Source: Botryococcus braunii
Taxonomy: Eukaryota; Chlorophyta; Trebouxiophyceae
Reading direction: 5' to 3'
DNA length: 64,000 bases
Assembly (NCBI GenBank): GCA_002005505.1
Contig: KV908345.1
Span: 717,659 to 781,658 of the forward strand
Shown: positions 5,562 to 64,000 of the stretch, one piece after another
How the letters are laid out: each line of letters begins with the position of its first letter
How positions within the stretch are numbered: the first letter of the stretch is position 1
Program-made: the position numbers and the translations under genes
Notes under the pieces: model-generated
Seen by the model: only the letters and a program-made list of their open reading frames with translations
Database searches by the model: none
Told to the model about the DNA's origin: nothing

Positions 5562-5650
5562 AAAATTAAGAGTGAAGCCTATTTTAACCGCACACCATAA
5601 ATCCATCATGCAGGGACGCGGAATCTAGGGGCCAAATATTCAAGGTGATA
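5562..5650 (+). mobile_element. Left arm of a TIR (MITE-like) element
   Basis: The segment carries the TIR (AAGAGTGAAGCCTAT...TAACCGCACACC) followed by a subterminal block with GGACGCGGAATCTAGGGGCC. The 6302-6398 copy is nearly identical over about 85 bp. No right arm is seen before the next copy; the sequence passes straight into a microsatellite at 5652. Either the copy lost its right arm or the microsatellite grew from its interior. Confidence 0.6.
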
Positions 5651-6282
<632 letters not shown>

Positions 6283-15736: not shown

Positions 15737-16050
15737 CTAGTCAACCTGCCCACGACGGCGTGCCCCGCCTCGTGGTGCCCGTGCGTTGACTGTGTCCCAG
15801 TATCCCTTTACAACATTGGGAGCATTTGTCAAATTCCGTTCCTCTTCCCAGGTGTCATGCTCTGACGAGTAACCCTTCCAGCGGACAAGGTACTCATACT
15901 TGGGACGGCCACGTGAATTGACACGACGGTGGTCCATTAAGGCTTCCACCTCGTACTCATCTTCCCCCTGCAGCACCTCTGCAGGTGGTGGGGGTTGCAT
16001 CGAACCATCCCGCCGGTACCGTTCCAGGTTGGAGACATGAAAGACATCAT
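15737..16050 (-). CDS. Gypsy-1 integrase tail with chromodomain (frameshifted off)
   Basis: Reads HDVFHVSNLE then a proline-rich linker and a chromodomain (YEVEALMDHR..KYEYLVRWKGYSSEHDTWE), with aromatic residues in the places expected for methyl-lysine reading. It is out of frame with the pol ORF upstream. A deletion of roughly 65 bp, judged against element B, joins the GPF motif directly to HDVFHV. In an undamaged relative this would be the C-terminus of integrase, where it guides integration. Confidence 0.8.
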
Positions 16051-40504: not shown

Positions 40505-41919
<1,415 letters not shown>

Positions 41920-42864
41920 TGTCACACTTTTGGATAGGTACCTGTGTGCTTGAGTTATTACACTCAAATTTTATATATATTCCCATCAAAGGCCATTATC
42001 TCATTTTCCCGTTGATATCGTGAGAGGATCTGCCTGTTTCGGACTCCATCGTGTGTAGATCGTGTTAGGCGCCACGTTCCAGGAGTGTCTCGAGCTCGAG
42101 TTAAGTGTGATAAGGATTTACCATTTACAATACCTACGCATTCATCAACTGTGGTTGAGTGTTTTCCTTTTGAATTCCACCTTGTGAGACTCTTCTCGGA
42201 GTCTCCAAGGTCTGCTGTCTTCGTCTTGTTGTGCTTCGGCTGAGATATTTGGGTCGCTTTTTGAGTTTGTTGGGCATTAGACTGCCATATTCTGAAACCC
42301 TGTGTTGCCTTGCGTCATATTTTGAGTCCAGTTATCTCTTCCGGTGTGAGTAAGCTTGCGTGGCCGAGGAAGCTTCGCGCTCTTTAATTTTACATCTGAA
42401 CAGTGGCACATAAGTCCTTGAGGTAGAGGTCGATAAAGTGTGTTCTAGTAGGACAGTGAATTATCGTGCAAATCTATGTTCATTGTCCGAACGTTCAGGC
42501 ATGCCGCCTAAGCACTTGATCTCCCGGTTAGGCCGTGTTCCACCTCACATTTTTAACATTTGCTGAAAGCTAGGAGGATTGATTGACTGGATTGCAGGCA
42601 ACATAAGGCATAGGAAAGGCAGCTTTGCACCGATAAGTCGAGTACCCGAGTGATCGTCGTTCACGCAGACTGAGGATTCGTAAGACAGAACATTGTTACA
42701 CCTGAGCGTTTTATTTGTAAGAAAACACTTGTCATTGTCACAGGAGGAATCGAGTGTGGTAGAGCTTGATTTAGGGGGACAACCGGGAAGTCCGGCATCG
42801 CCTTAGCGAAGAGTTTCTGAGCCCACCACTGGAACTGTGTTAGCCGTCTATACACGTATAACAC
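41920..42864 (+). repeat. Candidate 5' LTR of element E
   Basis: Begins TGTCACAC and could end ...CACGTATAACA. A TATA-like stretch TTATATATAT (41971-41980) would suit an LTR promoter. TTGGCGTCGAGGTAT just after 42864 is a possible primer site. Unverified without the partner LTR. Confidence 0.35.
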
Positions 42865-42878
42865 ATTGGCGTCGAGGT

Positions 42879-44788: not shown

Positions 44789-45264
44789 TGTCGTAGAATG
44801 CACAAGTTAGAGAGAATTTCCAAGTTGTGAGAGAGAGAGAGACAAGGCCGGATGGCCGACAAGTTGGACGCTCTTTCCAATTACAAGTAACCCCCACCTC
44901 ACGGAGCTTCCACTCCCTACTTGTGGTCTACTAAGCTTCCAAATTACCTGAGTGCGTGTCTTCCCGTGGCTTACGTCTCTATCCGTTCCTTCCCGTGGTT
45001 CGTGATCGTGTGTTCACGTTCCTCCAATGGTAGCGCACTAGTCCACCAAACCTCTACAATAGTATCTAGAAAATATCCTAGAATCCTACTATGAGAGTAA
45101 CGTCCATAACTATCCAATGGAATTCGACGGCTAGGAAGCCAAGGCTAGACGCTAGGCACGTGCGTACTCGCGTTGCTCGTACGACATGTGCGCTACATGT
45201 GCGCCTAGGCTAGGGGTTAAGGGAAATGTCCAGAAATGCCGGGAAATCCCTACATTCCATTACA
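44789..45264 (-). repeat. 3' LTR of D-outer
   Basis: 476 bp, TGTCGTAGAATGC...CCATTACA on plus. A handful of differences from 59401-59878 make this pair older than the others here. Confidence 0.92.
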
Positions 45265-46217
45265 TCATCCCCCCCTTAATTCCTGCATGACGTCATGCAG
45301 CCACATACACACATACAGTAGACCACAATTAGAAGGGAATGGTCGTCACCGAACGGCCCATCCACCAGCGCCGTTAGACCCTTGCCGAATGGGTTACATT
45401 AGGGTCCCCGCCTCCAAGTTATTCCCCTATCATCCCAAGCAATTGACTAAAGCGTCCAATTTTTTTTTTTGTTTTTAATTTATTTATTAGGTGTGCTTTA
45501 TTCCCGTCCTAAGTACAATACCGTACGATACGATACGATATGATACGATACGACACGGTACGATAAATTACGATAAATTACGGCGAACTACGACGAACTA
45601 CGACGAACGTTCGCCTTATTCCTTTCGAACTATCCAAGTCCGCCTTTATTGACACATCCCTATTTATTATTTATTAAAACAATACAATGCTTGTGACACA
45701 ACCGATAAACAATCCGAACAAGATAAATATGACACAGGTGTAGCTCAGTTCACAATGCTTTCCTAAAGTGGCTATCCATACAACACAGTTTCTTTATGAT
45801 ACATTGTCCATACTGTACACATACTGTACACATAAGGTACACATATAGTACATAGAAAGAAATCCATCCCAAGATGCCAAGTAGTCCATATCCAAGGGTT
45901 CCAAGTAGCCCATATCCAAGGGTTCCAAGTCACTTCTGTACTTCAAGCCCACGTCCCAAGTGCTAGTTAAGCAGACTGCGGTTGCGCGCCATGTGTACTT
46001 CAATTCCCATCCCTGAATGCAGAACCCCGAGTTCAATGCATCGAAGCGGTATGAGGCCTCATGCCACACATACCGAGGTAGGCAACCTACCCCGTCCCTT
46101 GTCCCAAAGTACACAAGATATACAGTCCCTACCATAGGTCCCGTCCCATGTATTCCCAGACACCAGGTGGGAACTCCACAAGTGGAATGAGGGGGACAAC
46201 CGTCCGGAGGGGCCCGT
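45265..46217 (-). other. D-outer 3' untranslated region with short tandem arrays
   Basis: On minus, a purine tract (AATTAAGGGGGGGATGA) adjoins the LTR. An array of ACGAT/ACGA-type repeats occupies about 45522-45606. A 24-bp unit (CCAAGTAGCCCATATCCAAG GGTT) occurs about twice near 45868-45932. No ORF is supported; the frame crossing this region is an extension of repeats. Confidence 0.75.
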
Positions 46218-47876
46218 TCAAGGGAAGGTGTCGCGCAGCGCCACCTGGTCCCAAATGGGCGGGGCGAGCCCCTGGAGTCTATGATAGGTATTAACCAGCC
46301 CGGGATGGGTCTCGAATGCCTCCTGAGATTCCCATGAGTCCTCTGTGGCCCCATGGCCTGCCCACTTTACAAGGTACTCGAGAAAGGGTGTGCCATCCTC
46401 AAAATGGTAGGAGTACCCATCCTTGTCGTGCAACAGCCGGTGATCGACTAGTGCATCCACTACCCACTCCAGGTGAGTGGTGCCATCCGCTTTGGTGATG
46501 ACTTTTGGGGGGCAGTATCCACGCGACTGCGCCTCCTCACGTGTCCAGTATGGCTTCAAATAGCAGACATTTATGCGGGGGTGGATGTCCAACCGGTCCG
46601 GAAGATCCAGTGTGACGAAGTTAACGTTGTCGGGCGTGACCGCCATGACCCTGAAGGGTCCCACGTGCTGCAGCTTGCTGAATCTGTTTGAAGTTAGCGT
46701 GGGGGCCGCACGGGTTGAAAGGAGGACATAGTCCCCTTCCTGGTAGATGGCCTCCCTCCTATGCCGGTTGGCATAGGCCGTCTGACGGTCTTGAGCTGCA
46801 CGCAAACACTTCCTTGCAAGGGTGATTTTGTCTTGCATTTTTCTCATGAAGAGATCAGCCCTATCCACCTTAGTGCCCTCCATGTGTCCCACCGCAAACG
46901 GTATATTTGGATCTTGCCCATATGTTAACCTGAAGGGTGTGGAGTTTAGGGAAGTTTGCCAAGAGTTGTTGTAGGCAAATTCCGCCACTGAAAGGTAATC
47001 CTCCCACTCCTTTGGGTTATCCTTGACATAGTGTTTCAGAAAATCTTCCAAGATCCTATTCACCCGTTCCGTTTGACCATCTGACTGAGGATGATATGCC
47101 GTAGTTCGAGCCGGCTTGCACCCCGTCAGACTTAGAAGTGTGTTCATGAAATTATTCACAAACCGAGGATCTCGGTCCGAAACAATTTCCTCAGGGAACC
47201 CGTGATACTTCCATACTTTATCCCTCATCAGAACAGCAACTTCATAAGCATCTGCATTGGTAGTGGTAGGGGCAAAGTGGGCACATTTGCTCAACCTGTC
47301 AACCACTACCCATACTGCGTTATGCCCGTGTTTGCTTTTAGGCAGTCCCGTGATGAAATCCATTGAGATGCTTTGCCATTTCCTTGTGGGGATTTGTAAA
47401 GGGTGTAAGAGTCCTGCGGGTAACTGGTTTGAGGCCTTCACCCGCTGGCATGAATCACAATACTTCACATACTCCCGCACATCCTCCGCCATTCCCGGCC
47501 ACCACCAGTCCCGCTTCACTAGATCATACATCTTCGCAAAGCCTGGATGACCAACAGAAGGAGGTTCATGCAAAGCTTTCAATATGTCCTGCCGCAGATT
47601 CCTAGCAACTGGACCTTCCTTATCCCGGACTTCATAAAATGCGGGCACATATTTTCTTCCCTCCCTTCCAAATTCCCAAACCCCGTCCGTAAAGTGAACT
47701 TTTCTCTTATTTGCCCTTGTTCCCAACCACGAATCATGTGCGTAAGCACCCTTCAACAATTCCAAGAAGGTGTCACACCCGTCAGACCCGAGGGTGATGG
47801 AGCCCGAGCGGGCCCTCCCGTCCCCATCCATCGAGGTTGCATTGGTCCCCTTCCCGGGGTTGGGCTCCGTGGAGAC
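46218..47876 (-). CDS. D-outer pol 3' part: integrase and chromodomain
   Basis: Linker and zinc site (HPGFAKMYDLV...CDSCQ), core D (SMDFITGLPK), D (VSDRDPRF), E (TERVNRILED), HVGPFRVMAV, then a chromodomain with a long insertion (VVDALVDHRLL..FLEYLVKWAGHGATEDSWE). The tryptophan codon that is a stop in D2 is intact here (RDWWWPGM). It continues upstream across the solo LTR at 47877-48143. D-outer reads HVGPF where D2 reads PRHVGPF, a 6-bp in-frame difference. Confidence 0.9.
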   Translation of the reverse strand, partial: VSTEPNPGKGTNATSMDGDGRARSGSITLGSDGCDTFLELLKGAYAHDSWLGTRANKRKVHFTDGVWEFGREGRKYVPAFYEVRDKEGPVARNLRQDILKALHEPPSVGHPGFAKMYDLVKRDWWWPGMAEDVREYVKYCDSCQRVKASNQLPAGLLHPLQIPTRKWQSISMDFITGLPKSKHGHNAVWVVVDRLSKCAHFAPTTTNADAYEVAVLMRDKVWKYHGFPEEIVSDRDPRFVNNFMNTLLSLTGCKPARTTAYHPQSDGQTERVNRILEDFLKHYVKDNPKEWEDYLSVAEFAYNNSWQTSLNSTPFRLTYGQDPNIPFAVGHMEGTKVDRADLFMRKMQDKITLARKCLRAAQDRQTAYANRHRREAIYQEGDYVLLSTRAAPTLTSNRFSKLQHVGPFRVMAVTPDNVNFVTLDLPDRLDIHPRINVCYLKPYWTREEAQSRGYCPPKVITKADGTTHLEWVVDALVDHRLLHDKDGYSYHFEDGTPFLEYLVKWAGHGATEDSWESQEAFETHPGLVNTYHRLQGLAPPIWDQVALRDTFP

Positions 47877-48143
47877 TGTAGCATTTCCTAGGGTATAATG
47901 CTCTAGTATGGTCCTTGGCATTGCTCTTTGACTTGCCATGTGATCTGGATTCGCAGTACAACCTCGCTCAAGTAGTTCCCTCGGTTGCCCGACTACGTAT
48001 ACGCGTCTGTGGCAGTACAGTATAATTCAATCCACCCTGGGTTTAAGAGTACGCTTGCGAATCAATCATGTAACACTCTTTCGTTGCACACCACGAACGT
48101 CTCACTGTCTCATAAAAACCTCTTCCGCTTAGTTAACGCTACA
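47877..48143 (+). repeat. Solo LTR of family A inserted in D-outer pol
   Basis: 267 bp, TGTAGCATTTCC...AACGCTACA, with GTATAC inserted near 47998 relative to element A. TSD gagac lies at 47872-47876 and 48144-48148. The uninterrupted site survives in D2 (near 52243). The internal part of the element is gone, the classic product of LTR-LTR recombination. Confidence 0.95.
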
Positions 48144-49089
48144 GAGACGTTGCGCTGCTGTTGTCCCTGGAGCTGTCCCTGGAGGACTGGGTTCCTAGAC
48201 AACGCATCCGCAACGTTAGTCTTTCCAGGCTCCCAAACCCAAAGAATGTTGAACTCCTGCAACTTCTCAGCCCACCGTGCCCTCCGAGGGCTTAAACCAA
48301 CCTGTTGCTGAAGAAAAGTGTTACACTTATGGTCTGTGGTGACAGTGACTTGTTTCCCTAGGACATAACATCTCCATTCAGTCAAGGCATACACTACAGC
48401 AAGTAACTCCCTCTCAGTTGCAGAATAGTTCCTTTCTGCACTATTGAGCTTCTTACTGTAATAAGCAATGACTCGACCTTCCTGCAATAGTACAGCGCCA
48501 ACCCCAAAATCACTCGCATCACAAATTACCTGGAAGGGTTTACGAAGGTCTGGCAGTGATAGTATGGGTGCCTGTATTAATGCATCCTTGAGAGCCGCAA
48601 GGGCCTCATCTTGCTCCTTTCCCCAAGTCCAAGAACTTTTGCTACTGGACAGTTCAGTCAAAGGTGCAGCAAGTGAGCTGAACCCCTGAATAAATTTTCG
48701 AAAATAATTTGCAAGCCCCAAAAATCTACGCACGTCGGTGACGTTTTGGGGTGTGGGCCAATCCTTGACTACCTCCACCTTTTGGGGGTCCACTTTCAGT
48801 CCATCCTTGCCAATGATATGCCCGAGGTATTTGAGTTCTGAGCATAAGAATTCACATTTGGCAAGTTTTGCAAACAATTCCTTTTCCCGAAGGCGTTGGA
48901 ACACCTTCCGAAGATGAGCATAATGCTCCTCTTCATCCCGACTGAAAATTAGAACATCGTCAAGGTACACTACCACAAACCCTTCCCTTATGAAATCATG
49001 AAAGATTTCATTCATTAGGCGTTGAAAGGTAGCGGGGGCGTTGGTGAGTCCAAAAGGAAGCACTAAGAACTCATACAGCCCAAAGGGTG
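48144..49089 (-). CDS. D-outer pol middle part: RT C-terminal half and RNase H
   Basis: From SPFGLYEFLVLPFGLTNAP through YLDDVLIFS (near 48965), the RT thumb, RNase H (VICDASDFGVGAVL, TERELLAV, TDHKCN) to the RNase H-integrase linker. The upstream edge is broken at 49089 by filler DNA and the D2 LTR, and the downstream edge by the solo LTR. Confidence 0.88.
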
Positions 49090-49115
49090 ATGTAGAACTG
49101 ATACAGCCCAAAGGG
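49090..49115 (-). other. Templated filler at the D-outer/D2 junction
   Basis: ATGTAGAACTG followed by a second copy of the adjacent 17-bp ATACAGCCCAAAGGGTG, the last two bases of which double as the first TG of the D2 LTR. No target-site duplication. Confidence 0.8.
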
Positions 49116-49580
49116 TGTCGTAGAATGCACAAGTTAGAGAGAATTTCCAAGTTGTGAGAGAGAGAGAGACAAGGCCGGATGGCCGACAAGTTGGACGCTC
49201 TTTCCAATTACAAGTAACCCCCACCTCACGGAGCTTCCACTCCCTACTTGTGGTCTACTAAGCTTCCAAATTACCTGAGTGCGTGTCTTCCCGTGGCTTA
49301 CGTCTCTATCCGTTCCTTCCCGTGGTTCGTGATCGTGTGTTCACGTTCCTCCAATGGTAGCGCACTAGTCCACCAAACCTCTACAATAGTATCTAGAAAA
49401 TATCCTAGAATCCTACTATGAGAGTAACGTCCATAACTATCCAATGGAATTCGACGGCTAGGAAGCCAAGGCTAGACGCTAGGCACGTGCGTACTCGCGT
49501 TGCTCGTACGACATGTGCGCCTAGGCACGGGGGTAAGGGAAATGTCTAGAAATGCCGGGAAATCCCCACATTCCATCACA
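49116..49580 (-). repeat. 3' LTR of D2
   Basis: Pairs with 56101-56565 by length and by the absence of the 11-bp duplication present in the outer pair. Confidence 0.92.
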
Positions 49581-50581
49581 TCATCCCCCCCTTAATTCCT
49601 GCATGTCCTCATGCAGCCACATACACACATACAGTAGACCACAATTATAAGGGAATGGTCGTCACCGAACGGCCCATCCACCAGCGCCGTTAGACCCTTG
49701 CCGAATGGGTTACATTAGGGTCCCCGCCTCCAAGTTATTCCCCTATCATCCCAAGCAATTGACTAAAGCGTCCAATTTTTTTTTTGTTTTTAATTTATTT
49801 ATTAGGTGTGCTTTATTCCCGTCCTAAGTACAATACTGTACGATACGATACGATATGATACGATACGACACGGTACGATAAATTACGATAAATTACGGCG
49901 AACTACGACGAACTACGACGAACGTTCGCCTTATTCCTTTCGAACTATCCAAGTCCGCCTTTATTGACACATCCCTATTTATTATTTATTAAAACAATAC
50001 AATGCTTGTGACACAACCGATAAACAATCCGAACAAGATAAATATGACACAGGTGTAGCTCAGTTCACAATGCTTTCCTAAAGTGGCTATCCATACAACA
50101 CAGTTTCTTTATGATACATTGTCCATACTGTACACATACTGTACACATAAGGTACACATATAGTACATAGAAAGAAATCCATCCCAAGATGCCAAGTAGT
50201 CCATATCCAAGGGTTCCAAGTAGCCCATATCCAAGGGTTCCAAGTAGCCCATATCCAAGGGCTCCCAAGTAGCCCATAGCCAAGGGTTCCAAGTCACTTC
50301 TGTACTTCAAGCCCACGTCCCAAGTGCTAGTTAAGCAGACTGCGGTTGCGCGCCATGTGTACTTCAATTCCCATCCCTGAATGCAGAACCCCGAGTTCAA
50401 TGCATCGAAGCGGTATGAGGCCTCATGCCACACATACCGAGGTAGGCAACCTACCCCGTCCCTTGTCCCAAAGTACACAAGATATACAGTCCCTACCATA
50501 GGTCCCGTCCCATGTATTCCCAGACACCAGGTGGGAACTCCACAAGTGGAATGAGGGGGACAACCGTCCGGAGGGGCCCGT
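49581..50581 (-). other. D2 3' untranslated region with expanded minisatellite
   Basis: As in D-outer but with about four copies of the 24-bp unit (near 50191-50300) in place of two. The ACGAT-type array is at about 49844-49928. Confidence 0.8.
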
Positions 50582-53500
50582 TCAAGGGAAGGTGTCGCGC
50601 AGCGCCACCTGGTCCCAAATGGGCGGGGCGAGCCCCTGGAGTCTATGATAGGTATTAACCAGCCCGGGATGGGTCTCGAATGCCTCCTGAGATTCCCATG
50701 AGTCCTCTGTGGCCCCATGGCCTGCCCACTTTACAAGGTACTCGAGAAAGGGTGTGCCATCCTCAAAATGGTAGGAGTACCCATCCTTGTCGTGCAACAG
50801 CCGGTGATCGACTAGTGCATCCACTACCCACTCCAGGTGAGTGGTGCCATCCGCTTTGGTGATGACTTTTGGGGGGCAGTATCCACGCGACTGCGCCTCC
50901 TCACGTGTCCAGTATGGCTTCAAATAGCAGACATTTATGCGGGGGTGGATGTCCAACCGGTCCGGAAGATCCAGTGTGACGAAGTTAACGTTGTCGGGCG
51001 TGACCGCCATGACCCTGAAGGGTCCCACGTGCCTGGGCTGCAGCTTGCTGAATCTGTTTGAAGTTAGCGTGGGGGCCGCACGGGTTGAAAGGAGGACATA
51101 GTCCCCTTCCTGGTAGATGGCCTCCCTCCTATGCCGGTTGGCATAGGCCGTCTGACGGTCTTGAGCTGCACGCAAACACTTCCTTGCAAGGGTGATTTTG
51201 TCTTGCATTTTTCTCATGAAGAGATCAGCCCTATCCACCTTAGTGCCCTCCATGTGTCCCACCGCAAACGGTATATTTGGATCTTGCCCATAGGTTAACC
51301 TGAAGGGTGTGGAGTTTAGGGAAGTTTGCCAAGAGTTGTTGTAGGCAAATTCCGCCACTGAAAGGTAATCCTCCCACTCCTTTGGGTTATCCTTGACATA
51401 GTGTTTCAGAAAATCTTCCAAAATCCTATTCACCCGTTCCGTTTGACCATCTGACTGAGGATGATATGCCGTAGTTCGAGCCGGCTTGCACCCCGTCAGA
51501 CTTAGAAGTGTGTTCATGAAATTATTCACAAACCGAGGATCTCGGTCCGAAACAATTTCCTCAGGGAAACCGTGATACTTCCATACTTTATCCCTCATCA
51601 GAACAGCAACTTCATAAGCATCTGCATTGGTAGTGGTAGGGGCAAAGTGGGCACATTTGCTCAACCTGTCAACCACTACCCATATTGCGTTATGCCCGTG
51701 TTTGCTTTTAGGCAGTCCCGTGATGAAATCCATTGAGATGCTTTGCCATTTCCTTGTGGGGATTTGTAAAGGGTGTAAGAGTCCTGCGGGTAACTGGTTT
51801 GAGGCCTTCACCCGCTGGCATGAATCACAATACTTCACATACTCCCACACATCCTCCGCCATTCCCGGCCACCACTAGTCCCGCTTCACTAGATCATACA
51901 TCTTCGCAAAGCCTGGATGACCAACAGTCGGAGGTTCATGCAAAGCTTTCAATATGTCCTGCCGCAGATTCCTAGCAACTGGACCTTCCTTATCCCGGAC
52001 TTCATAAAATGCAGGCACATATTTTCTTCCCTCCCTTCCAAATTCCCAAACCCCGTCCGTAAAGTGAACTTTTCTCCTATTTGCCCTTGTTCCCAACCAC
52101 GAATCATGTGCGTAAGCACCCTTCAACAATTCCAAGAAGGTGTCACACCCGTCAGACCCGAGGGTGATGGAGCCCGAGCGGGCCCTCCCGTCCCCATCCA
52201 TCGAGGTTGCAATGGTCCCCTTCCCGGGGTTGGGCTCCGTGGAGACGTTGCGCTGCTGTTGTCCCTGGAGCTGTCCCTGGAGGACTGGGTTCCTGGACAA
52301 CGCATCCGCAACGTTAGTCTTTCCAGGCTCCCAAACCCAAAGAATGTTGAACTCCTGCAACTTCTCAGCCCACCGTGCCCTCCGAGGGCTTAAACCAACC
52401 TGTTGCTGAAGAAAAGTGTTACACTTATGGTCTGTGGTGACAGTGACTTGTTTCCCTAGGACATAACATCTCCATTCAGTCAAGGCATACACTACAGCAA
52501 GTAACTCCCTCTCAGTTGCAGAATAGTTCCTTTCTGCACTATTGAGCTTCTTACTGTAATAAGCAATGACTCGACCTTCCTGCAATAGTACAGCGCCAAC
52601 CCCAAAATCACTCGCATCACAAATTACCTGGAAGGGTTTACGAAGGTCTGGCAGTGATAGTATGGGTGCCTGTATTAATGCATCCTTGAGAGCCGCAAGG
52701 GCCTCATCTTGCTCCTTTCCCCAAGTCCAAGAACTTTTGCTACTGGACAGTTTAGTCAAAGGAGCAGCAAGTGAGCTGAACCCCTGAATAAATTTTCGAA
52801 AATAATTTGCAAGCCCCAAAAATCTACGCACGTCGGTGACGTTTTGGGGTGTGGGCCAATCCTTGACTACCTCCACCTTTTGGGGGTCCACTTTTAGTCC
52901 ATCCTTGCCAATGATATGCCCGAGGTATTTGAGTTCTGAGCTTAAGAATTCACATTTGGCAAGTTTTGCAAACAATTCCTTTTCCCGAAGGCGTTGGAAC
53001 ACCTTCCGAAGATGAGCATAATGCTCCTCTTCATCCCGACTGAAAATTAGAACATCGTCAAGGTACACTACCACAAACCCTTCCCTTATGAAATCATGAA
53101 AGATTTCATTCATTAGGCGTTGAAAGGTAGCGGGGGCGTTGGTGAGTCCAAAAGGAAGCACTAAGAACTCATACAGCCCAAAGGGTGTACGAAACGCTGT
53201 TTTAGGAATGTCTTCCTCCTTTAGCCTTACTTGATGATAACCACTGAGGAGGTCCAGACTAGAGAAAATCTTAGCACCTTTAAGTTTATCAAGCAAGTCG
53301 TCTATGCGAGGGAGAGGGTACCTATCATGAATGGTGATTTTATTTAATGCCCTGTAGTCTATAACCATTCGGTATGTGCCCTCCTTCTTCCTCACAAACA
53401 AGACCGGTGAAGCATATGGTGAACATGAGGGGCGTATGTGTCCCTTAGAAAGTAGTTCATCCACAGTTCGCTCACATTCCTCAGTTTCTTCCACGGACAA

Positions 53501-54742
53501 GCGGTAAGCAGGACGGTTTGGAGGAGTTATTCCTTCCTGCACATTAATAGTGTGATAGACTTGTCGGTGTGGGGGTAGTCCTGGTAGCCCAGTTGGAAAA
53601 ATGTCCTTGTACTCCCGGAGCAAGTGTGCTAGCCGCTCAGGCTTTTTAGCACAAATTTCCTCTAGAGGGTCCGAAGGCTTACCCGTGGTGACCTCGGATT
53701 CTCCCTCTTCCTCTTCCTTTTCCTCTTCCCTTTCCTCTTCCTCTTCCACTTCCTTCTCCACTTCTAGGCAACTCTCCATATCCGGGGCCGTGCCCGAGGT
53801 ATCCCCCGGCGCAGAGTTGTGTAAGGAAGTCCCGGATGACTCCGTCGAGGGGTCGTCCATGTCCACCAAAGGTGGCATCTCTTCTTGTTCATCCCAACCA
53901 ACATGTTCATCCTTGGCCATGACATTGAACAAGCAGGTTTTCCAATGATCCCGTTTCCCTTTCCTGGTGTTTCCTAATTTGATTCCCCATCCCAACTTCT
54001 TTCCCAAGCCTTTTCCATGTTTGTTTAACAAGACCCATTTGTTATTGTGTCTAATATGAGCCTTGCCAGCTCTCACATTAACATTAGCATGTCCTGGTGC
54101 TAGCCTATCCTGTCCCAAAATAATGTCAATTCCTTCCATTATTGAGTCACACACAAGAAAGGAGTGTCTCGTAATGATAGATGGAGCAAACCGGACACTC
54201 AAATCCACTTTCCCATTTGTGTGTGTTACTGTCCCATCAGCAAGTGTGACGGGTGAAGTCCTCTTGTTATACCTCAAACCTTGCAAAACTTTTTCCCGGA
54301 CAAAAGAGTGTGTGGCCCCGGTGTCCATTAAAGCTTTACATTGTTGTCCCCTTGTCATGACAGGAAATGTGAGGTTAAGAGGTGCAGCACTTGACGTTGA
54401 ACCCAACTGACAAGATGCTTTGGGTGCTGCATAAGCTAAAACAAAGGAAAAAGGAAATGTACATTGCTGCCCTTGAAAAGAAAAGCATTCCCCTTTTGAG
54501 CCCCTAGCAAGAATTTTCAGGTTTGCGAGAGAGCGTAACCGCAAAAAGAAACTCCTACTTTTCCACACCTTCTGGCCTATCACAAAGCATGCACTGACTT
54601 GTGAATTTTCTTTTCGTTCAGCAAGAAAAGATTCAATACAAGTCTCAGCTTTGTGTTTGCCAGGAACAATCAGAGGTGTATTCCAACTTCCCAAGGACTT
54701 CTGAACAAGAAAAGTTAAATATGAAAAACAAATTTCATTCAT
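50582..54742 (-). pseudogene. D2 pol (PR-RT-RNase H-IN-chromodomain) with one stop
   Basis: The ATG at 54742 lies two bases beyond the gag TAG. About 1,385 codons are open except for a TAG at 51875-51877 in the integrase zinc domain, where D-outer has TGG (Trp). N-terminal domain of about 140 residues (shared with Gypsy-2); protease [10 protein letters not shown] and IILGQDRL; a Glu-rich linker (about 25 residues, mostly E, near 53700-53770). [22 protein letters not shown] and YLDDVLIFS (near 53050); RNase H VICDASDFGVGAVL; integrase core and chromodomain as in D-outer. A single point mutation separates it from coding integrity. Confidence 0.92.
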
Positions 54743-54744
54743 GA

Positions 54745-55983
54745 CTAATCTTGTTTAGGGCCCTTGCCCTTCCCTTTCCCTTTCCAATGTTTTCCCTTGT
54801 TAAATCCCTTAGGCCCAATGTGTGAGGGAGGTGAAACACCTTGCAGTGGTGCTGCCACTGGTTGATTGTTTCCTTGCCTCGGATAGAATCCAGGCTGAAA
54901 ATTTGATGGGGTGTGCCCACTAGCTTGAGCTTTGGCAGCTAGATATTGCTTTTTAGCAACACACTGCCATCACTCGTGGCCTAGTTTATGACAAAAATAG
55001 CATTCCCTATCCTTTGGAATAGAGGTTCTGGAATCAATTTTTCTCCCGGACCCAAAAGGGGGTGCTCCCACCAAACCCAAGGAAGGTGGTGCAGGGGGCT
55101 GTTGTTCCACCACTCCTGCTGCCACTTGAGGTGTCTGGGTGTAGACCCTCTTCCTCTTGGGTCCCTGTGCATCCACATATGTGCTTTTGAGACTTGCCTC
55201 ATATTTAACAACATAAGTGCAAATGTCTTCCAGATCAGTGAAAGGACTGCCTGTTGCAGGGTTCACAGTGCATGCAAGTTTGAGAGGAGTATTAAGACCC
55301 TTGGTAAAAAGATGTAACTGGTCTTGCATGGCTATTTGATAGTCAACCTCTACATCTGCTAAGAGAGACATAAATCTTTCAATATATCTCTCGACAGTCT
55401 CATTTCCTTGAAAGACTTTGTCTAATTTTGCCCTGGCAATGGCCACTGTGTCTGTGGAATCATATCTTTTAACCATAAAAGTTTTAAAATCCTTCCATTC
55501 CAATGTATGCTCATGTATCCCTTCCTTTTCTAGTTTCCTTACATGTGTGTCCCAAACTTTTGTAGGTCTTTCTTCCATCAATTGCACTCCCAAGGCCACC
55601 CACTTTCCTGCAGGCACATTGGTTAGTTTTGCATAGCCTTCCAACTTCCTTGCAAAATAGCAAAAAGATCCCCTCTTTCCCGAAAACAAAGAAGGAGGAG
55701 TTGCTCTTACTTGTCCACTAGGGCGAGGAGTCTCCTCCACCCCATCCCCTCCAACTTGCCTTTCGGCAAGAAGCTTTTCCTTAAATTCCAAAAATAACTG
55801 CTCCTTTATTTTATTGGTTAACTTGATCTTCTTTGTCTTTGGTGTGGACGGAGCGGGCGACGGATCGCGAGATGCCCCCTCCATCAAGTCCTCTACCAGC
55901 TCCCCTGAGCTTTCCAACGCTTCCAAAAATTCTCTTTCTTCCGAAGAAAGGTTTTTAAACTTCCCAGAAGAGGGCGGTGACAT
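54745..55983 (-). pseudogene. D2 gag with nonsense codon in the zinc knuckle
   Basis: [20 protein letters not shown] opens an acidic, helix-rich N-terminus. The capsid core includes [20 protein letters not shown] and [20 protein letters not shown]. The knuckle reads [10 protein letters not shown] then TGA in place of the TCA (Ser) kept in the copy at 58261-58275. The remaining knuckle Cys and basic GKGKGRA-type tail follow in frame. Without suppression the product lacks its nucleic-acid-binding end. Confidence 0.88.
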
Positions 55984-56086
55984 CTACGGCCCACATATGA
56001 GAGTTAGGACCTTCCATCAACGATCTCCCTCCTACGACTTTCCTCCTTCCACCACGCGAAAGACTTGCAGAGAACAACTCGGCATC

Positions 56087-56098
56087 TCGCCGATACCA
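56087..56098 (-). promoter_or_regulatory. Primer binding site of D2
   Basis: TGGTATCGGCGA on minus, two bases from the 5' LTR; same 12-mer as in A, B and D-outer. Confidence 0.75.
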
Positions 56099-56100
56099 GA

Positions 56101-56565
56101 TGTCGTAGAATGCACAAGTTAGAGAGAATTTCCAAGTTGTGAGAGAGAGAGAGACAAGGCCGGATGGCCGACAAGTTGGACGCTCTTTCCAATTACAAGT
56201 AACCCCCACCTCACGGAGCTTCCACTCCCTACTTGTGGTCTACTAAGCTTCCAAATTACCTGAGTGCGTGTCTTCCCGTGGCTTACGTCTCTATCCGTTC
56301 CTTCCCGTGGTTCGTGATCGTGTGTTCACGTTCCTCCAATGGTAGCGCACTAGTCCACCAAACCTCTACAATAGTATCTAGAAAATATCCTAGAATCCTA
56401 CTATGAGAGTAACGTCCATAACTATCCAATGGAATTCGACGGCTAGGAAGCCAAGGCTAGACGCTAGGCACGTGCGTACTCGCGTTGCTCGTACGACATG
56501 TGCGCCTAGGCACGGGGGTAAGGGAAATGTCTAGAAATGCCGGGAAATCCCCACATTCCATGACA
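56101..56565 (-). repeat. 5' LTR of D2
   Basis: Begins TGTCGTAGAATGC on plus and ends CCATGACA. It is followed by a duplicated TTTAAGTTTA (56566-56575 and 56578-56587) where D-outer resumes. Confidence 0.92.
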
Positions 56566-56575
56566 TTTAAGTTTA

Positions 56576-58041
56576 CCTTTAAGTTTATCAAGCAAGTCGT
56601 CTATGCGAGGGAGAGGGTACCTATCATGAATGGTGATTTTATTTAATGCCCTGTAGTCTATAACCATTCGGTATGTGCCCTCCTTCTTCCTCACAAACAA
56701 GACCGGTGAAGCATATGGTGAACATGAGGGGCGTATGTGTCCCTTAGAAAGTAGTTCATCCACAGTTCGCTCACATTCCTCAGTTTCTTCCACGGACAAG
56801 CGGTAAGCAGGACGGTTTGGAGGAGTTATTCCTTCCTGCACATTAATAGTGTGATAGACTTGTCGGTGTGGGGGTAGTCCTGGTAGCCCAGTTGGAAAAA
56901 TGTCCTTGTACTCCCGGAGCAAGTGTGCTAGCCGCTCAGGCTTTCTAGCACAAATTTCCTCTAGAGGGTCCGAAGGCTTACCCGTGGTGACCTCGGATTC
57001 TCCCTCTTCCTCTTCCTTTTCCTCTTCCCTTTCCTCTTCCTCTTCCACTTCCTTCTCCACTTCTAGGCAACTCTCCATATCCGGGGCCGTGCCCGAGGTA
57101 TCCCCCGGCGCAGAGTTGTGTAAGGAAGTCCCGGATGACTCCGTCGAGGGGTCGTCCATGTCCACCAAAGGTGGCATCTCTTCCTGTTCATCCCAACCAA
57201 CATGTTCATCCTTGGCCATGACATTGAACAAGCAGGTTTTCCAATGATCCCGTTTCCCTTTCCTGGTGTTTCCTAATTTGATTCCCCATCCCAACTTCTT
57301 TCCCAAGCCTTTTCCATGTTTGTTTAACAAGACCCATTTGTTATTGTGTCTAATATGAGCCTTGCCAGCTCTCACATTAACATTAGCATGTCCTGGTGCT
57401 AGCCTATCCTGTCCCAAAATAATGTCAATTCCTTCCATTATTGAGTCACACACAAGAAAGGAGTGTCTCGTAATGATAGATGGAGCAAACCGGACACTCA
57501 AATCCACTTTCCCATTTGTGTGTGTTACTGTCCCATCAGCAAGTGTGACGGGTGAAGTCCTCTTGTTATACCTCAAACCTTGCAAAACTTTTTCCCGGAC
57601 AAAAGAGTGTGTGGCCCCGGTGTCCATTAAAGCTTTACATTGTTGTCCCCTTGCCATGACAGGAAATGTGAGGTTAAGAGGTGCAGCACTTGACGTTGAA
57701 CCCAACTGACAAGATGCTTTGGGTGCTGCATAAGCTAAAACAAAGGAAAAAGGAAATGTACATTGCTGTCCTTGAAAAGAAAAGCATTCCCCTTTTGAGC
57801 CCCTAGCAAGAATTTTCAGGTTTGCGCGAGAGCGTAACCGCAAAAAGAAACTCCTACTTTTCCACACCTTCTGGCCTATCACAAAGCATGCACTGACTTG
57901 TGAATTTTCTTTTCGTTCAGCAAGAAAAGATTCAATACAAGTCTCAGCTTTGTGTTTGCCAGGAACAATCAGAGGTGTATTCCAACTTCCCAAGGACTTC
58001 TGAACAAGAAAAGTTAAATATGAAAAACAAATTTCATTCAT
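56576..58041 (-). CDS. D-outer pol 5' part: N-terminal domain, protease, start of RT
   Basis: The ATG at 58041 follows the gag TAG by two bases. It aligns with D2 pol almost base for base: [18 protein letters not shown], Glu-rich linker, [31 protein letters not shown]. It is then cut where D2 lies. The next 89 bp of RT are absent from D-outer. The chance continuation into the D2 LTR to 56506 is not biological. Confidence 0.9.
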
Positions 58042-58043
58042 GA

Positions 58044-59282
58044 CTAATCTTGTTTAGGGCCCTTGCCCTTCCCTTTCCCTTTCCAATGTTTTCCCTTGTT
58101 AAATCCCTTAGGCCCAATGTGTGAGGGAGGTGAAACACCTTGCAGTGGTGCTGCCACTGGTTGATTGTTTCCTTGCCTCGGATAGAATCCAGGCTGAAAA
58201 TTTGATGGGGTGTGCCCACTAGCTTGAGCTTTGGCAGCTAGATATTGCTTTTTAGCAACACACTGCCATGACTCGTGGCCTAGTTTATGACAAAAATAGC
58301 ATTCCCTATCCTTTGGAATAGAGGTTCTGGAATCAATTTTTCTCCCGGACCCAAAAGGGGGTGCTCCCACCAAACCCAAGGAAGGTGGTGCAGGGGGCTG
58401 TTGTTCCACCACTCCTGCTGCCACTTGAGGTGTCTGGGTGTAGACCCTCTTCCTCTTGGGTCCCTGTGCATCCACATATGTGCTTTTGAGACTTGCCTCA
58501 TATTTAACAACATAAGTGCAAATGTCTTCCAGATCAGTGAAAGGACTGCCTGTTGCAGGGTTCACAGTGCATGCAAGTTTGAGAGGAGTATTAAGACCCT
58601 TGGTAAAAAGATGTAACTGGTCTTGCATGGCTATTTGATAGTCAACCTCTACATCTGCTAAGAGAGACATAAATCTTTCAATATATCTCTCGACAGTCTC
58701 ATTTCCTTGAAAGACTTTGTCTAATTTTGCCCTGGCAATGGCCACTGTGTCTGTGGAATCATATCTTTTAACCATAAAAGTTTTAAAATCCTTCCATTCC
58801 AATGTATGCTCATGTATCCCTTCCTTTTCTAGTTTCCTTACATGTGTGTCCCAAACTTTTGTGGGTCTTTCTTCCATCAATTGCACTCCCAAGGCCACCC
58901 ACTTTCCTGCAGGCACATTGGTTAGTTTTGCATAGCCTTCCAACTTCCTTGCAAAATAGCAAAAAGATCCCCTCTTTCCCGAAAACAAAGAAGGAGGAGT
59001 TGCTCTTACTTGTCCACTAGGGCGAGGAGTCTCCTCCACCCCATCCCCTCCAACTTGCCTTTCGGCAAGAAGCTTTTCCTTAAATTCCAAAAATAACTGC
59101 TCCTTTATTTTATTGGTCAACTTGATATTCTTTGTCTTTGGTGTGGACGGAGCGGGCGACGGATCGCGAGATGCCCCCTCCATCAAGTCCTCTACCAGCT
59201 CCCCTGAGCTTTCCAACGCTTCCAAAAATTCTCTTTCTTCCGAAGAAAGGTTTTTAAACTTCCCAGAAGAGGGCGGTGACAT
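58044..59282 (-). CDS. D-outer gag (intact)
   Basis: A 412-codon frame, [20 protein letters not shown] to a basic GKGKGKG tail. Complete CCHC knuckle ([14 protein letters not shown] near 58270-58310). Acidic N-terminus, capsid helices, Pro-rich spacer ([18 protein letters not shown]). The stop TAG is followed by TC and the ATG of pol (TAGTCATG), suggesting pol is made by termination-reinitiation or leaky coupling, not by a fusion. Confidence 0.93.
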
Positions 59283-59386
59283 CTACGGCCCACATATGAG
59301 AGTTGGCACCTTCCATCGAACGATCTCCCTCCTACGACTTTCCTCCTTCCACCACGCGAAAGACTTGCAGAGAACAATTCGGCATC

Positions 59387-59398
59387 TCGCCGATACCA
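59387..59398 (-). promoter_or_regulatory. Primer binding site of D-outer
   Basis: TGGTATCGGCGA on minus, two bases after the 5' LTR. Confidence 0.75.
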
Positions 59399-59400
59399 GA

Positions 59401-59878
59401 TGTCGTAGAATGCACAAGTTAGAGAGAATTTTTAAGTTTTGAGAGAGAGAGAGAGACAAGGCCGGATGGCCGACAAGTTGGACGCTCTTTCCAATTACAA
59501 GTAACCCCCACCTCACGGAGCTTCCACTCCCTACTTGTGGTCTACTAAGCTTCCAAATTACCTGAGTGCGTGTCTTCCCGTGGCTTACGTCTCTATCCGT
59601 TCCTTCCCGTGGTTCGTGATCGTGTGTTCATGTTCCTCCAATGGTAGCGCACTAGTCCACCAAACCTCTACAATAGTATCTAGAAAATATCCTAGAATCC
59701 TACTATGAGAGTAACGTCCATAACTATCCAATGGAATTCGACGGCTAGGAAGCCAAGGCTAGACGCTAGGCACGTGCGTACTCGCGTTGCTCGTACGACA
59801 TGTGCGCTACATGTGCGCCTAGGCTAGGGGTTAAGGGAAATGTCCAGAAATGCCGGGAAATCCCTACATTCCATTACA
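59401..59878 (-). repeat. 5' LTR of D-outer
   Basis: 478 bp; shares the ACATGTGCGCTACATGTGCG variant with 44789-45264. Followed by agaat. Confidence 0.92.
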
Positions 59879-59883
59879 AGAAT

Positions 59884-61843
59884 GCCTTTACCGGATCCTA
59901 CCAACTTGGCCAAGAGACAGAAGAATGCTACCTGGCCATGGAAGTTTGCTCTTTTTGATCCCACCATTCATTCTTTCGAAAAACCACCATATTGGCCTGA
60001 GCATCTTCCGAAACCTGCCGCACACACCGGATGGCCAAGTGGCCAGAACATTGAACCAGCGGATGTGTATTATGAAAGTGGCAGAGTCAAACCTTCATTT
60101 GATTTTACACCTGTTTTGAAGCACCCACCAGAAGAGCCTAATGAGTTATATATGGCTAGGTTCAACACTGAGTTTAGATGCACGTTGGAACCTATCTGGC
60201 AGCGTACTCCAAATACAGATGACTATGTTGCAGTCGACGCTACTAATTTACCCACTCACCGCATGATAACAACTAGGACTGTGGTACATGATAGGAGTGT
60301 AGTAACTACTGTATGTCCTCAAGTACAGCTGACACATGATCACCTTGACATTGTTGCACTATTTCAAGACTCACGAGATGCAAATCCTCGCTTTGCTAAT
60401 TGGTCTATTGATATCAATGACTTACTTAGCAAAAGGCAGAGTAACCCGCCTCCGCGCGAGCATCTTGGTGCACAGATGTCTCCCATGGAGACCCGCAGGG
60501 ATATTGCGAATCACACACTTGTTCTTCGGCATGTTCATGCAGATGGCTTATTACGGCATGCAAGGGAAGTGACTGGCACATCAGTACAGGGTGATGCTGA
60601 TCTCTCTCACACCACTGCTGTTACACCTGCATTTGAATCTAATATTATCACTAGTGACTGCCCTGAACTTAACCAAATCTTTTGCAATATGCTGCAAGGC
60701 GTTGGTCCCATGTCAGGTACGTCCTATCAAGTTACTCCAGCAAATGTGTATGCTTTGAATAATAGAAGACCCCACAGGGCTGAGAATTTTAGACAATCTG
60801 ATCGAGAAGATGTGCGCCCCGCGCACCATCCTGCACCTTATTTTCACAACCCTGAGAGTCGTATCGCTTCAGCTGTTATAACAACCACACTATCGGGTCT
60901 TGTGCGCATCAACAAGAACCCTTTGTTCCCTGCTTTTGTCGATGCGTGTGATGCTTTGCTTACTCCCTCTGCTGCTGATGCTCAGAATGTCCTTGTAGAG
61001 TTAGGTACAGCACTAAATAATATGGCTGCAGAGGAAAAGCTTGCATTTTGCTGCTCTCTCAATGGCAAAGAGCTTCCTCTGCAAGGGGGGGAGGCCTTTC
61101 CTTGTCAAGCAGGGACTTCCAATCATGCAGGAACTTCTAATCAGGCAGGGAATGCTGGCCACGCTCTACACATAGAGCAGGCATATTTTATTTCCAGGAA
61201 GAATTTTAATGAAGATGATATTCCATTGATTTCTTTACTCACGCCAGCGATGCAGATTGCGGAAGCTATTCCGTTGCCGTTGGACACTGATTTTGCTCAA
61301 GTCGCAATAAATCAGGTGCCGACAATCTTCATTCCCACGGCTTCAATGCCGGCATTTAAGTTTGCATTTCTTAAACCCGCTGTTTCTAAGGATGCAAGGC
61401 CTTCACACTTCAACCCTATGGCCATCCGCACTGGACATTTTGACTCAGGCTGCAACACGAACTTGATGAGTGGAAAAGCATATGAGGCTAACAAACATTT
61501 GTTCACACCTGCTCAGATCAAAGGTATTAAACCCTTCAGGATAAACATGGCTGATGGTACCTCACACACCATGTCTTTGAGGGTAGTTGAAGACCTTGTC
61601 ATATGCATGCAAGATGCTTACTACATTGCTACCTTCCTCATCATAGACAACTTGGCCATTGATTTTCTGATCGGTTGGGCATTCATGGTTCAATATGTTG
61701 TTCAACTTAAGCCTCAGCTTTCCAAATATGCCATTGGTCTTCCTCGTAATCAACTCATGCAGAATGTATCTGAGAAGCGCACGTACCAAATGCTTGAGTT
61801 AGCGTTTAAGACTAAAAAGATGACCTTAGTGGTCTCGTCGTAG
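59884..61843 (+). CDS. Element E gag-protease, second part
   Basis: Continues the 42879 frame after the D insertion (joined at agaat, ...CWR M PLPDP...). About 650 codons, most without a recognised domain. The ATG at 59840 lies inside the D LTR and is not native. Near the end is an aspartic protease: GHFDSGCNTNLM (near 61433), NMADGTSHTM as the flap region, and IDFLIGWAFM as the second motif. The active-site triad is DSG, as in many Ty3 relatives. The frame stops at TAG 61841-61843, overlapping the pol frame by 28 bases. The large unassigned segment ahead of the protease is unusual. Confidence 0.85.
61814..61843 (+). promoter_or_regulatory. gag-protease/pol overlap, candidate -1 frameshift site
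   Basis: The pol frame opens at 61816, after a TAA at 61813-61815, and is -1 relative to gag-protease. An A-rich stretch, zero-frame AAA AAG at 61814-61819, sits at the very start of the overlap and would allow the AAG-decoding tRNA to slip to AAA. It is not a perfect XXXYYYZ heptamer. Alternatively pol could restart at the ATG at 61894, 50 bases past the stop. Confidence 0.45.
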
Positions 61844-64000
61844 CTTGTTTGCTTGCACAGGATTTTTCTTTGTTACCAGACCTTGAATATATCATGTCAG
61901 AACTTTATTTTCATTGCATCTTTGAAGACCGGAGCTACGAGCACCGGGTGCCAGATGAGTTATTTGACTTCGATGAAATCACGCAAATCATGAGAGCGTG
62001 TAAGGCCGAGACAGCTATTTTGCCTTTTTCATTGCAGCTAAGAAATTCCGCCACATTTATGGGTGACCCTGCTTTGGCCCCTCTATCTGCCACTCTAGCT
62101 GCCTCTTATGAAATTGAACCTTATGATGTTTTGCTTGATTCTTGTCCCTACCTTTGTGAGGTGAAGGTTATGCCACCCACTTCTGAGCTGGATGATGATA
62201 AGAGAAGGGATATTGAGAGCTTGTTAGAGGAGTTTGCTGACTTGTTTAGCACTGGGAAGGACGATCTTGGATGTATTTCTGATCCTGAAATTTGTCACCA
62301 AATACATCTCAAGCCAGATTCTTTTCCACCCTCTAAATATCGTAATATGTCGACCTATTCTGAGAAAGAGAAGGGTTTCTTATCTGGGGAAATTAAGATG
62401 TTGCTTGAACTTGGGATTATCCGTCAATCCACTTCCCCATGGATTTCAGCACCCGTGATTGTTAAGAAACAAGATGGCACTTTACGGTTGTGCATTGATT
62501 TCCGTCCTCTGAATGCATGTACAGTGTCTGATCCGTATCCCTTGCCTTTGATTGAATCGATGCTACGTAAAATGGCCCCCGCTAAATACTTTTCAGCAAT
62601 GGACATAGCGTCAGCATTTTGGCAAGTAAAGATGCACCCTGATCATTCCAAATATACTGCATTCATGACACATGAAGGAAAATATGAGTGGTTGAGGATG
62701 CCCTTTGGATTGAAAAATGCCTCCAGCACTTTTCAAAGACTCATGGACAACGTGCTTGGTGCTGCATTGTTTTCCCATGCTTATCTTGATGATGTTCATG
62801 TATTTTCACAAACTTGGGAAGATCATGTGAGACACTTACGAGATACCTTTACTAAACTTTCATTGCATAAGATAAAACTCAAGAGGCCAAAATGCATATT
62901 TGGGGCACGATACTTAAAAACTCTTGGACATGTGGTTGGAGATGGATGTCTGCGTCCTGATCCTGACAATGTAGCCGCAATTCTTAACTTGCCTACACCC
63001 CGAGATGTTTCCACTACCAGATCTGTCTTGGGGGCTGCGGGATATTATCGTGAATATGTTGAGAATTTTGCTGGCATTACTGAACCCTTGTCTCGTTTGT
63101 TGAAGAAGACTTCTACCTTTGTGTGGACCCCAGAGTGTCAATATGCATATGACAAAGTGAAAGGTTGTTTAGCCTCTGAACCCATCTTACGTGCACCCAA
63201 TTTTAGCTTACCTTTTGCTTTAACAACTGATTGGTCAAAAACAGCCATAGGTGCCATACTTAGTCAACCTGACCCTGTGACTAATTTTGACCATCCCATA
63301 GCCTTTGCTTCAAAAACACTAAAACAGGCTGAGAGGAACTACTCTCCCACGGAAGGGGAATGCTTTGCACTCGTTTGGGCGTGTGAGAAATTTCGACCTT
63401 TCTTACACGGAAGGCGCTTTATTGCTTATACTGATCATGCACCCTTACAGTATTTGGATTCGAAGCGACACACAAACAGTAAATTAGAACGATGGGCCCT
63501 TAGGCTCCAAGAATTTGACATCGATATCCAGTATAAAAAAGGGGCTGATAATCTTGTTGCTGATTGCCTATCCCGTTGCGTGCATTCTGAAGCTTTACAT
63601 GTTTATGCTGTTACGCCCATTTGGGAACCTCAACCTGTGAAGCAAAGTGACCTTGACTCTATTCCATGTGTAATTTGTGGTTTTCCGCAAGGTGATGACA
63701 ATATTGTTTTGTGCGATGGATGTAACCGTTGCTTTCACCTGCGATGTTTGTTTCCACCCCGCTCAATCGTACCTGGGGGCTGCTGGTTCTGCCCGGCTTG
63801 TGATCCATATCTTGGAAAAGATGGAGAACTAAAGATTGCAGAGATCAAGAATGCAGAAACGCCTTTGGAATGCCACAGACACGACCCTTATATGGATGCT
63901 GCATTTTTGGACTTTGTTTATTCTGGACACAATCTAGATCTTTTCACCAATCTTCCTCCCAAGATAGCGGCAGAATTCAGAAGAAGAGGCTCGTACTTCA
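61816..64000 (+). CDS. Element E pol: RT, RNase H, PHD finger (runs off window)
   Basis: Open without a stop for at least 728 codons to the window edge. First ATG at 61894 (MSELYFHCIFED). RT: fingers VKKQDGTLRLCIDFRPLN (near 62461), palm YFSAMDIASAFWQV, MPFGLKNASSTFQR, catalytic AYLDDVHVFS (near 62775). RNase H: TTDWSKTAIGAIL, SPTEGECFAL, TDHAPLQYLD, then ADNLVADCLSR. Next, 63667-63801 encodes a PHD finger: CVIC, CDGC, FH, C, WFCPAC in the C4HC3 spacing C-x2-C-x11-C-x2-C-x4-H-x2-C-x15-C-x2-C. After it comes ECHRHDPYMDAAFLDFVYSG, unassigned. Integrase should follow outside the window. In Ty3 elements RNase H normally leads directly to the integrase zinc site, so the PHD finger is an insertion. 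Confidence 0.9.
63667..63801 (+). other. PHD finger domain within element E pol
   Basis: All eight zinc ligands are present (C4HC3), with the conserved Trp two residues before the last Cys pair. PHD fingers typically bind the histone H3 tail, methylated or unmodified at K4. Here the domain would sit between RNase H and the integrase. Confidence 0.88.

Follow-up and report, generated by a model that had tools for sequence, protein, structure and literature searches.

What does a zinc finger of the kind that reads histone tails do inside the polyprotein of a retrotransposon, and does it belong there at all? The question is raised by element E, a Gypsy-type element at the right end of a 64,000-nucleotide stretch of Botryococcus braunii DNA (the window; C9:717659-781658), in whose pol frame an earlier note had placed a PHD finger after the RNase H domain. 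The window was analyzed as part of a 176-Mb genome sequence in 989 contigs.

The PHD finger in the pol frame

The PHD finger was confirmed by a profile search on the pol, a check that the earlier note had proposed. Residues 618-662 of frame 61816-63999 matched PF00628 with an E-value of 1.8e-8 and a score of 34.7 bits against a Pfam cut-off of 24, and the Pfam domains of this frame followed one another in the order RVT_1, RNase H, and PHD. The C4HC3 motif was found exactly at 63667-63801, as claimed; its last spacing, given in the note as x15, is C-x14-C, and the full ligand pattern reads C-x2-C-x11-C-x2-C-x4-H-x2-C-x14-C-x2-C. Because of this E-value, and because 62 database proteins carry a Pfam PHD with the same C4HC3 motif, a chance origin of the match is excluded. 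The viral contigs searched contained no match. The coordinates of the features of E are collected in Table 1.

The frame stays open up to the end of the window and for 122 nt further, to C9:781780. The integrase that was expected to the right of the window is indeed there, but not in the same frame: it resumes in another one (L009:1027-2373; H2C2, 2.7e-15; rve, 4.5e-9), so that the frame of the window copy of E is interrupted after the PHD, ahead of the integrase. A loss of frame immediately outside the window, which had been named as evidence against an element-encoded PHD, therefore did occur in this copy; it is absent from intact copies, and since such copies exist, the loss is private to the window copy. 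In a copy of the same family (C235; L011), RT, RNase H, PHD, H2C2, and rve lie in a single 1165-aa frame, and in a copy of another family (C354; L012), they lie in a single 1178-aa frame, which bears out the placement of the PHD between RNase H and integrase. The integrase domains of the C235 copy matched PF17921 (H2C2; 7.8e-16) and PF00665 (rve; 2.6e-8), and a GPY/F motif was present (GPF at aa 1079), while the rve match of the C354 copy reached 30.2 bits, below the Pfam cut-off of 32.6. Both copies show the RT-RNase H-integrase domain order of Ty3/Gypsy elements (Metaviridae), and no chromodomain was found in either (Pfam, E ≤ 0.05).

On C164 and C278, further frames (1146 and 1151 aa, respectively) contain the PHD with matching RT-RNase H and integrase parts, bringing the genome to at least four PHD families with all parts in one frame of 1146 to 1178 aa. 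In line with this, a genome search for the same RNase H-PHD order, using 270 residues from RNase H to integrase, yielded at least 147 matches (best 142 of 1608 candidates scored). These fell into identity groups of 96 to 100% (including E) and near 80, 67, and 57%, corresponding to the four or more families, with fragments in between and a further divergent group near 30% identity. Copies lacking the PHD were not seen in this search; its query contained the PHD, which makes it a weak test for such copies, and the PHD-free database search described below is the better one. A host gene captured by a single copy, or an assembly join, would also place a PHD in this position. We discard both, since the same arrangement recurs in other copies and in metagenomic proteins, and nothing was found in their favor; the PHD belongs to the element and not to a neighboring host gene, as the earlier note had held.

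Table 1. Features of element E. Positions are those of the window unless another sequence is named.
Feature	Position	Strand	Remarks
5' part of E (5' terminus to mid-ORF1)	41490..44788	+	99.45% identity with the beginning of the C235 copy (L054 300-3598)
142-bp terminal direct repeat A1 (TGTCAT...GGATAC)	41490..41631	+	Matches the C235 copy at its 5' end with 100% identity
ORF1, first part (gag-like by position)	42807..44785	+	No Pfam match
Nested insertion splitting E	44789..59878	.	5-bp target duplication AGAAT at 44784-44788 and 59879-59883
ORF1, second part	59879..61840	+	DSG motif, aspartic-protease type (by eye); no Pfam match over the whole part
Pol frame inside the window	61816..63999	+	Continues to C9:781780, then frame lost
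Reverse transcriptase domain (RVT_1)	62461..62934	+	Pfam E 6.7e-29
RNase H domain (RT_RNaseH)	63199..63516	+	Pfam E 1.3e-35
PHD finger, C4HC3	63667..63801	+	Pfam E 1.8e-8; all 135 nt the same as in the C235 copy
Split terminal repeats A1 ... B1-TATA-A2 ... B2	41490-41631; L009:3118-4146		C235 copy: L054:300-441, L055:1873-2897

Ends and layout of element E

Element E extends further left than had been seen before. Its 5' end lies at 41490, and the element is interrupted by a 15.1-kb nested insertion with TG..CA ends, which carries two minus-strand chromodomain Gypsy integrase ORFs (46221-48026 and 50585-51874). In the C235 copy, ORF1 is unbroken (1313 aa; L054 1617-5555). The outer flanks of E show a 4-bp target duplication, CCTT (on C9, in the left flank and again after the 3' end at C9:784745), and those of the C235 copy show ACGG, so that target duplications were present in both of the E copies examined over both outer flanks (2/2). 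TG...CA ends and a short target-site duplication are thus present in E. Two identical full LTRs are absent, the 5' and 3' ends having just 142 bp in common, which is unusual among LTR elements. A second copy of this 142-bp repeat lies about 1 kb before the 3' end (L009:3138-3278; 96%), and the repeat has 34 matches across the genome. The 3' end is built as B1 (16 bp)-TATA-A2 (142 bp)-about 850 bp-B2 (16 bp), the 16-bp motif standing once ahead of the second 142-bp copy, with TATA between the two, and once at the extreme 3' end.

Split direct repeats are the layout of DIRS-type elements. Element E is like DIRS/PAT-like elements in this layout; its pol, however, encodes an rve-type integrase. 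A tyrosine recombinase was looked for, and no recombinase family was among the Pfam matches of the intact E-type pol, which contains H2C2 and rve instead.

Two further observations concern the layout of these elements. ORF1 and pol of E overlap by 28 nt in different frames (window 61816-61843; L011:1531-1558), whereas in the C278 family they share a frame and are separated by one stop codon (L050:5541-5543); pol expression may therefore differ between families. Next to a C100 copy, a stretch of about 655 bp from the E 3' end occurs as three tandem repeats (L051:1614-3657).

Distribution of the PHD among related elements

A database search with the RNase H-PHD-integrase stretch returned 30 proteins, and Pfam PHD and RNase H were found in the same protein in 26 of them, all from jgi, lgn, or ena sources. 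The search was repeated with a PHD-free query, RT-RNase H, and the 8000 candidates with the most shared words were scored; of these, 6018 passed and 120 were listed. When proteins were ranked by best local alignment (134 of 136 aligned), ranks 1 to 37, at 88 to 47% identity, carried the PHD without exception (37/37), and all came from the list of the PHD-free search. The first PHD-less protein stood at rank 38 with 46% identity, and below it PHD-bearing and PHD-less proteins interleave. In the order of whole-protein scores, PHD-less proteins stood as high as second and fourth (39.6 and 44.8% best local identity); several of these high-scoring proteins are long and animal-derived. A quick 143-row RT-RNase H tree united the 64 E-type rows in one clade with an SH-aLRT of 99.9. 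Because ranks 1 to 37 all carry the PHD and the E-type rows form one clade, the PHD is, judged from these sequences, a mark of the clade, still present in relatives of about 44% identity. The clade, to which E belongs as a Ty3/Gypsy-type retrotransposon, is large and old, and its pol has the PHD as a fixed part, after RNase H and before the zinc domain of integrase.

The other Gypsy families of the window had been said to carry chromodomains. This held for four other integrase ORFs, in which chromodomains were confirmed; in the Gypsy pol ORFs 20877-23486 and 16047-19277, no chromodomain was seen. The former has no rve and the latter ends inside an SH3-like domain, and both may therefore be cut short. 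In a 45-row tree, E was separate from the chromodomain families of the window.

The PHD was also found in a second, deeper lineage, in the same slot between RNase H and integrase, together with a Dam-like N6-adenine methyltransferase domain that follows protease and precedes RT. A 1912-aa frame on C523 (L044:76-5811, + strand) comprises gag, protease, Dam-like domain, RT, RNase H, PHD, H2C2, and rve, the Dam-like domain matching with an E-value of 1.5e-11 and 44.7 bits (Pfam cut-off, 28.1); an NCBIfam phage methyltransferase model scored 38.8 against this protein, below its cut-off of 97.05. On C25, this order is spread over two frames (L046:6090-8354 and 2825-6127, - strand; Dam, 9.3e-17), with no gag match in the scanned frames, and C35 has it through H2C2 (L047:3-5000, + strand; Dam, 1.4e-11), with no rve in that frame. 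An NPPF motif was present in the Dam-like domains of both C523 and C25 (2/2 examined). Three database proteins group with this lineage, two with a whole PHD (P0031 and P0032) and one cut inside it (P0035). A precomputed Dam domain is absent from all three, and P0035 contains a stretch that resembles the Dam-like domain by eye and is without NPPF; the methyltransferase may therefore be worn down in some members.

In the 45-row tree, the E-type elements and the Dam lineage were united with support of 97/95. The quick 143-row tree requires two changes for the PHD. A tree in which all 70 PHD rows form one group surpassed the quick one by 32.9 log units and is not rejected (p-AU, 0.776), a solution that the quick search had therefore missed. 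These trees thus favor one origin of the PHD in the two groups, without proving it.

LTR-type retrotransposons with a chromatin-reader fold are already known. Chromoviruses, also represented in the window, likewise have a Ty3/Gypsy pol with such a fold on the integrase side; in E-type elements, however, the reader is a PHD N-terminal of integrase and not a chromodomain C-terminal of it. PHDs are present in ORF1 of CR1 and L2 LINEs, for which a passage of PMC4120745 suggests a targeting role. These are non-LTR elements, and in the cases that passage treats, the PHD lies in ORF1 or at the ORF start and not next to an integrase. According to the table of PMC2836005, the DNA transposon Ginger1-9_HM encodes a Gypsy-like integrase protein with a PHD; in this single family of the table, the PHD is C-terminal, together with Ulp1. 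Retrotransposons with methyltransferases (DNMT in Ty3/Gypsy and other elements, Dam in DIRS) are cases of captured epigenetic domains, as in the Dam lineage described here. The word PHD is absent from two papers on such elements (PMC5890265 and PMC6338049). In a passage of PMC6338049, Ty3/Gypsy and DIRS elements are mentioned jointly as encoding DAM and DCM, among them elements of green algae and charophytes; Dam in a Gypsy element, as in the second lineage, may therefore not be new. A literature search found no earlier report of a PHD in a Gypsy pol, most subscription journals lying outside it, so that an earlier notice is possible; within this scope, the PHD version described here is new, and its extent is wide. 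PHD occurs 0 times in PMC3601003, and its mentions in three other papers were irrelevant (a thesis in the references of PMC6875170, a host gene near an insertion in PMC3286476, and a reference in PMC5408684).

What the PHD may read

Of seven pol segments compared among four families of the genome, none was as conserved as the PHD in any of the six family pairs. Its amino acid identity in the six pairs was 98, 78, 80, 78, 80, and 87%, against 88, 70, 67, 70, 67, and 69% for RT-RNase H, and the linker and post-PHD segments were far less conserved. Finite dN/dS values for the PHD were 0.052 and 0.036; they derive from dS of 2.6 and 3.7 and are rough, synonymous sites being mostly saturated. When the window PHD was aligned with those of 41 of the 62 database proteins (42 rows), the eight zinc ligands, L642, P647, P653, and G655 were among the columns without variation. 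An AlphaFold model of the window frame predicted two short strands in the PHD (630-632 and 639-641), with moderate confidence over the domain (block mean pLDDT of 67 to 82, and 55 in the block with its last two residues). One explanation of the PHD is that it is a purely structural zinc module of an N-terminal extension of integrase, its fold kept without any reading. The fixed position and spacing would agree with this, as would the further stretch and the H2C2 zinc domain that come next. However, the neighboring linker and post-PHD segments are much less conserved, and relatives outside the clade manage without a PHD, so that we consider a purely structural role improbable.

By sequence, the best solved relatives of the E PHD (best 60 of 86 PDB sequences) were those of EHD3, WSTF, CHD4, KDM5B and KDM5A PHD1, ATXR5, and PHF21A (BHC80), with BAZ2A slightly lower. 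These nearest solved PHDs are mostly readers of unmodified H3, KDM5B among them. MLL5, presumably a reader of H3K4me3, was last among the 60 PDB matches listed. PHDs that read H3K4me3 have a cage Trp two residues before the zinc His. At this position, Trp was found in 0/67 E-type PHDs and in 0/5 rows of the Dam lineage; the 67 have C, P, L, F, T, Y, M, or A there, with Phe or Tyr in 3.

The E PHD aligned without gaps to PHD1 of KDM5B, a domain of a host demethylase. According to the passage on its H3 contacts in PMC4225485, A1 is held by L325, P347, G349, and W351, R2 is contacted by D328, T3 by E321, and K4 by D308; the numbering was placed on the PDB sequence and agrees with the published contact residues. 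The 67 E-type PHDs compared with it had been chosen by a motif in which the zinc ligands and an aromatic residue (W, F, or Y) at the Trp position were fixed and the other positions were free. In the A1 pocket, the equivalents of P347 and G349 were P and G in 67/67 each (and invariant in the 42 aligned rows), and that of W351 was W in 63 and F in 4, an aromatic residue being required by the motif. The K4-contact position, D308, was D in 58/67 and E in 5/67. The A1-pocket and K4-contact positions are thus alike in KDM5B PHD1 and the E-type PHDs, but the R2 and T3 contacts are not kept across the whole clade: the equivalent of D328 was D in 28, E in 6, S in 27, and another residue in 6, and that of E321 was D or E in just 13/67. 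Since these positions vary, H3 binding may be changed or lost in part of the clade. The window PHD itself has D, V, L, D, P, G, and W at D308, L325, L326, D328, P347, G349, and W351 and D in place of E321. Because the A1 pocket and the K4 contact are kept, the cage Trp is absent, and the nearest solved PHDs are of the kinds listed above, the sequences are best accommodated by a reader of the unmodified-type H3 N-terminus, and least well by a reader of promoter marks; such binding is inferred.

We therefore suggest, at a probability of roughly 0.55, that the PHD in the E clade binds the unmodified-type H3 N-terminus and tethers the integration complex to nucleosomes of that kind. After proteolysis, the PHD would remain N-terminal of integrase. 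It would bind the N-terminus of histone H3 as do the unmodified-H3 readers KDM5 PHD1, BHC80, and AIRE and, once bound, would tether the integration complex to nucleosomes in the unmodified-H3 state, steering or docking integration. It may thus act from the N-terminal side as the chromodomain is thought to act from the C-terminal side in chromoviruses. Points against this reading are the variable R2 and T3 contacts, the high whole-protein scores of some PHD-less proteins, the presence of MLL5 among the solved matches, the moderate confidence of the AlphaFold model over the PHD, and insertion positions that give no positive indication of targeting. That a PHD can serve in this way is suggested by HIV-1, whose integration was redirected by a PHD fused to an integrase tether, as described in a passage of PMC8149907.

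Alternatively, the PHD could bind a host partner protein or a SUMO/ubiquitin factor and not histone tails, serving nuclear import, docking to chromatin complexes, or integrase stability. A precedent is KAP1, whose PHD works as an E3 module, and the fold, A1 pocket, and acidic D308 position are kept in the E clade, yet the R2 and T3 contacts vary. The retention of the P347, G349, and W351 equivalents in 67, 67, and 63 of the 67 sequences speaks against such a partner, but P and G may have a role in the fold, and an aromatic residue was a condition of the motif, so that conservation of the A1 pocket is not decisive here. We regard a host partner as rather unlikely, though the strongest of the alternatives.

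Site choice by LTR retrotransposons rests on few known devices, including chromodomains and host-factor tethers. A conserved module in many related elements may help to choose landing sites, and a clade that keeps an integrase-side PHD, more conserved in the families compared than its reverse transcriptase, would be a natural experiment in reading another histone state. Binding of unmodified H3 by the PHD could also be set in a broader and more tentative picture: an ancient Gypsy-like superclade, in this host and in the hosts of the metagenomic relatives, may target integration via an unmodified-H3-reading PHD ahead of integrase, with one branch adding an adenine-methyltransferase domain and the E branch replicating with split direct repeats and not with ordinary LTRs. 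If this were true, the Dam branch would be an element with both a chromatin reader and a writer of DNA marks, and the lineage with PHD and Dam-like domain would connect retroelements to histone reading and DNA adenine methylation.

In the version of the earlier note, the PHD reads H3K4me3 and E targets promoters so marked. The domain is a PHD, some PHDs do read H3K4me3, and a tether with the ING2 PHD sent HIV-1 toward start sites, according to the same passage of PMC8149907. Against this stand the cage position, which is never Trp in the 67 sequences, and the nearest solved PHDs (EHD3, WSTF, CHD4, KDM5 PHD1, ATXR5, BHC80, and BAZ2 types), mostly assigned above to unmodified H3. Insertion positions were compared for 91 E-type, 28 Dam-lineage, and 150 chromodomain loci, with exons of kinase and light-harvesting genes serving as 120 host-gene proxies. 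The locus lists were merged by hand from the best 142 of 1608 PHD candidates and the best 150 of 1236 chromodomain candidates, the latter of which may include host genes. The light-harvesting matches (PF00504) numbered 35 and were mostly partial, as expected of split genes, and mark the host as a photosynthetic eukaryote; a search for COX1 yielded a single weak match, which fell below the cut-off and contained two stops. Within 50 kb of an E-type locus lay 3 of the 120 proxies, against 6.2 expected if uniform, which is no enrichment at a low power; the corresponding figures for chromodomain loci were 8 and 10.2. The distances to proxies showed no difference between E-type and chromodomain loci (P value of 0.68; low power). 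Insertion close to genes thus finds no support here. Promoter targeting through H3K4me3 is accordingly not upheld, and we consider it very improbable. All three kinds of loci had more pairs within 20 kb than expected: 9 against 0.93 for E-type loci, 21 against 2.54 for chromodomain loci, and 15 against 1.62 for the host-gene proxies.
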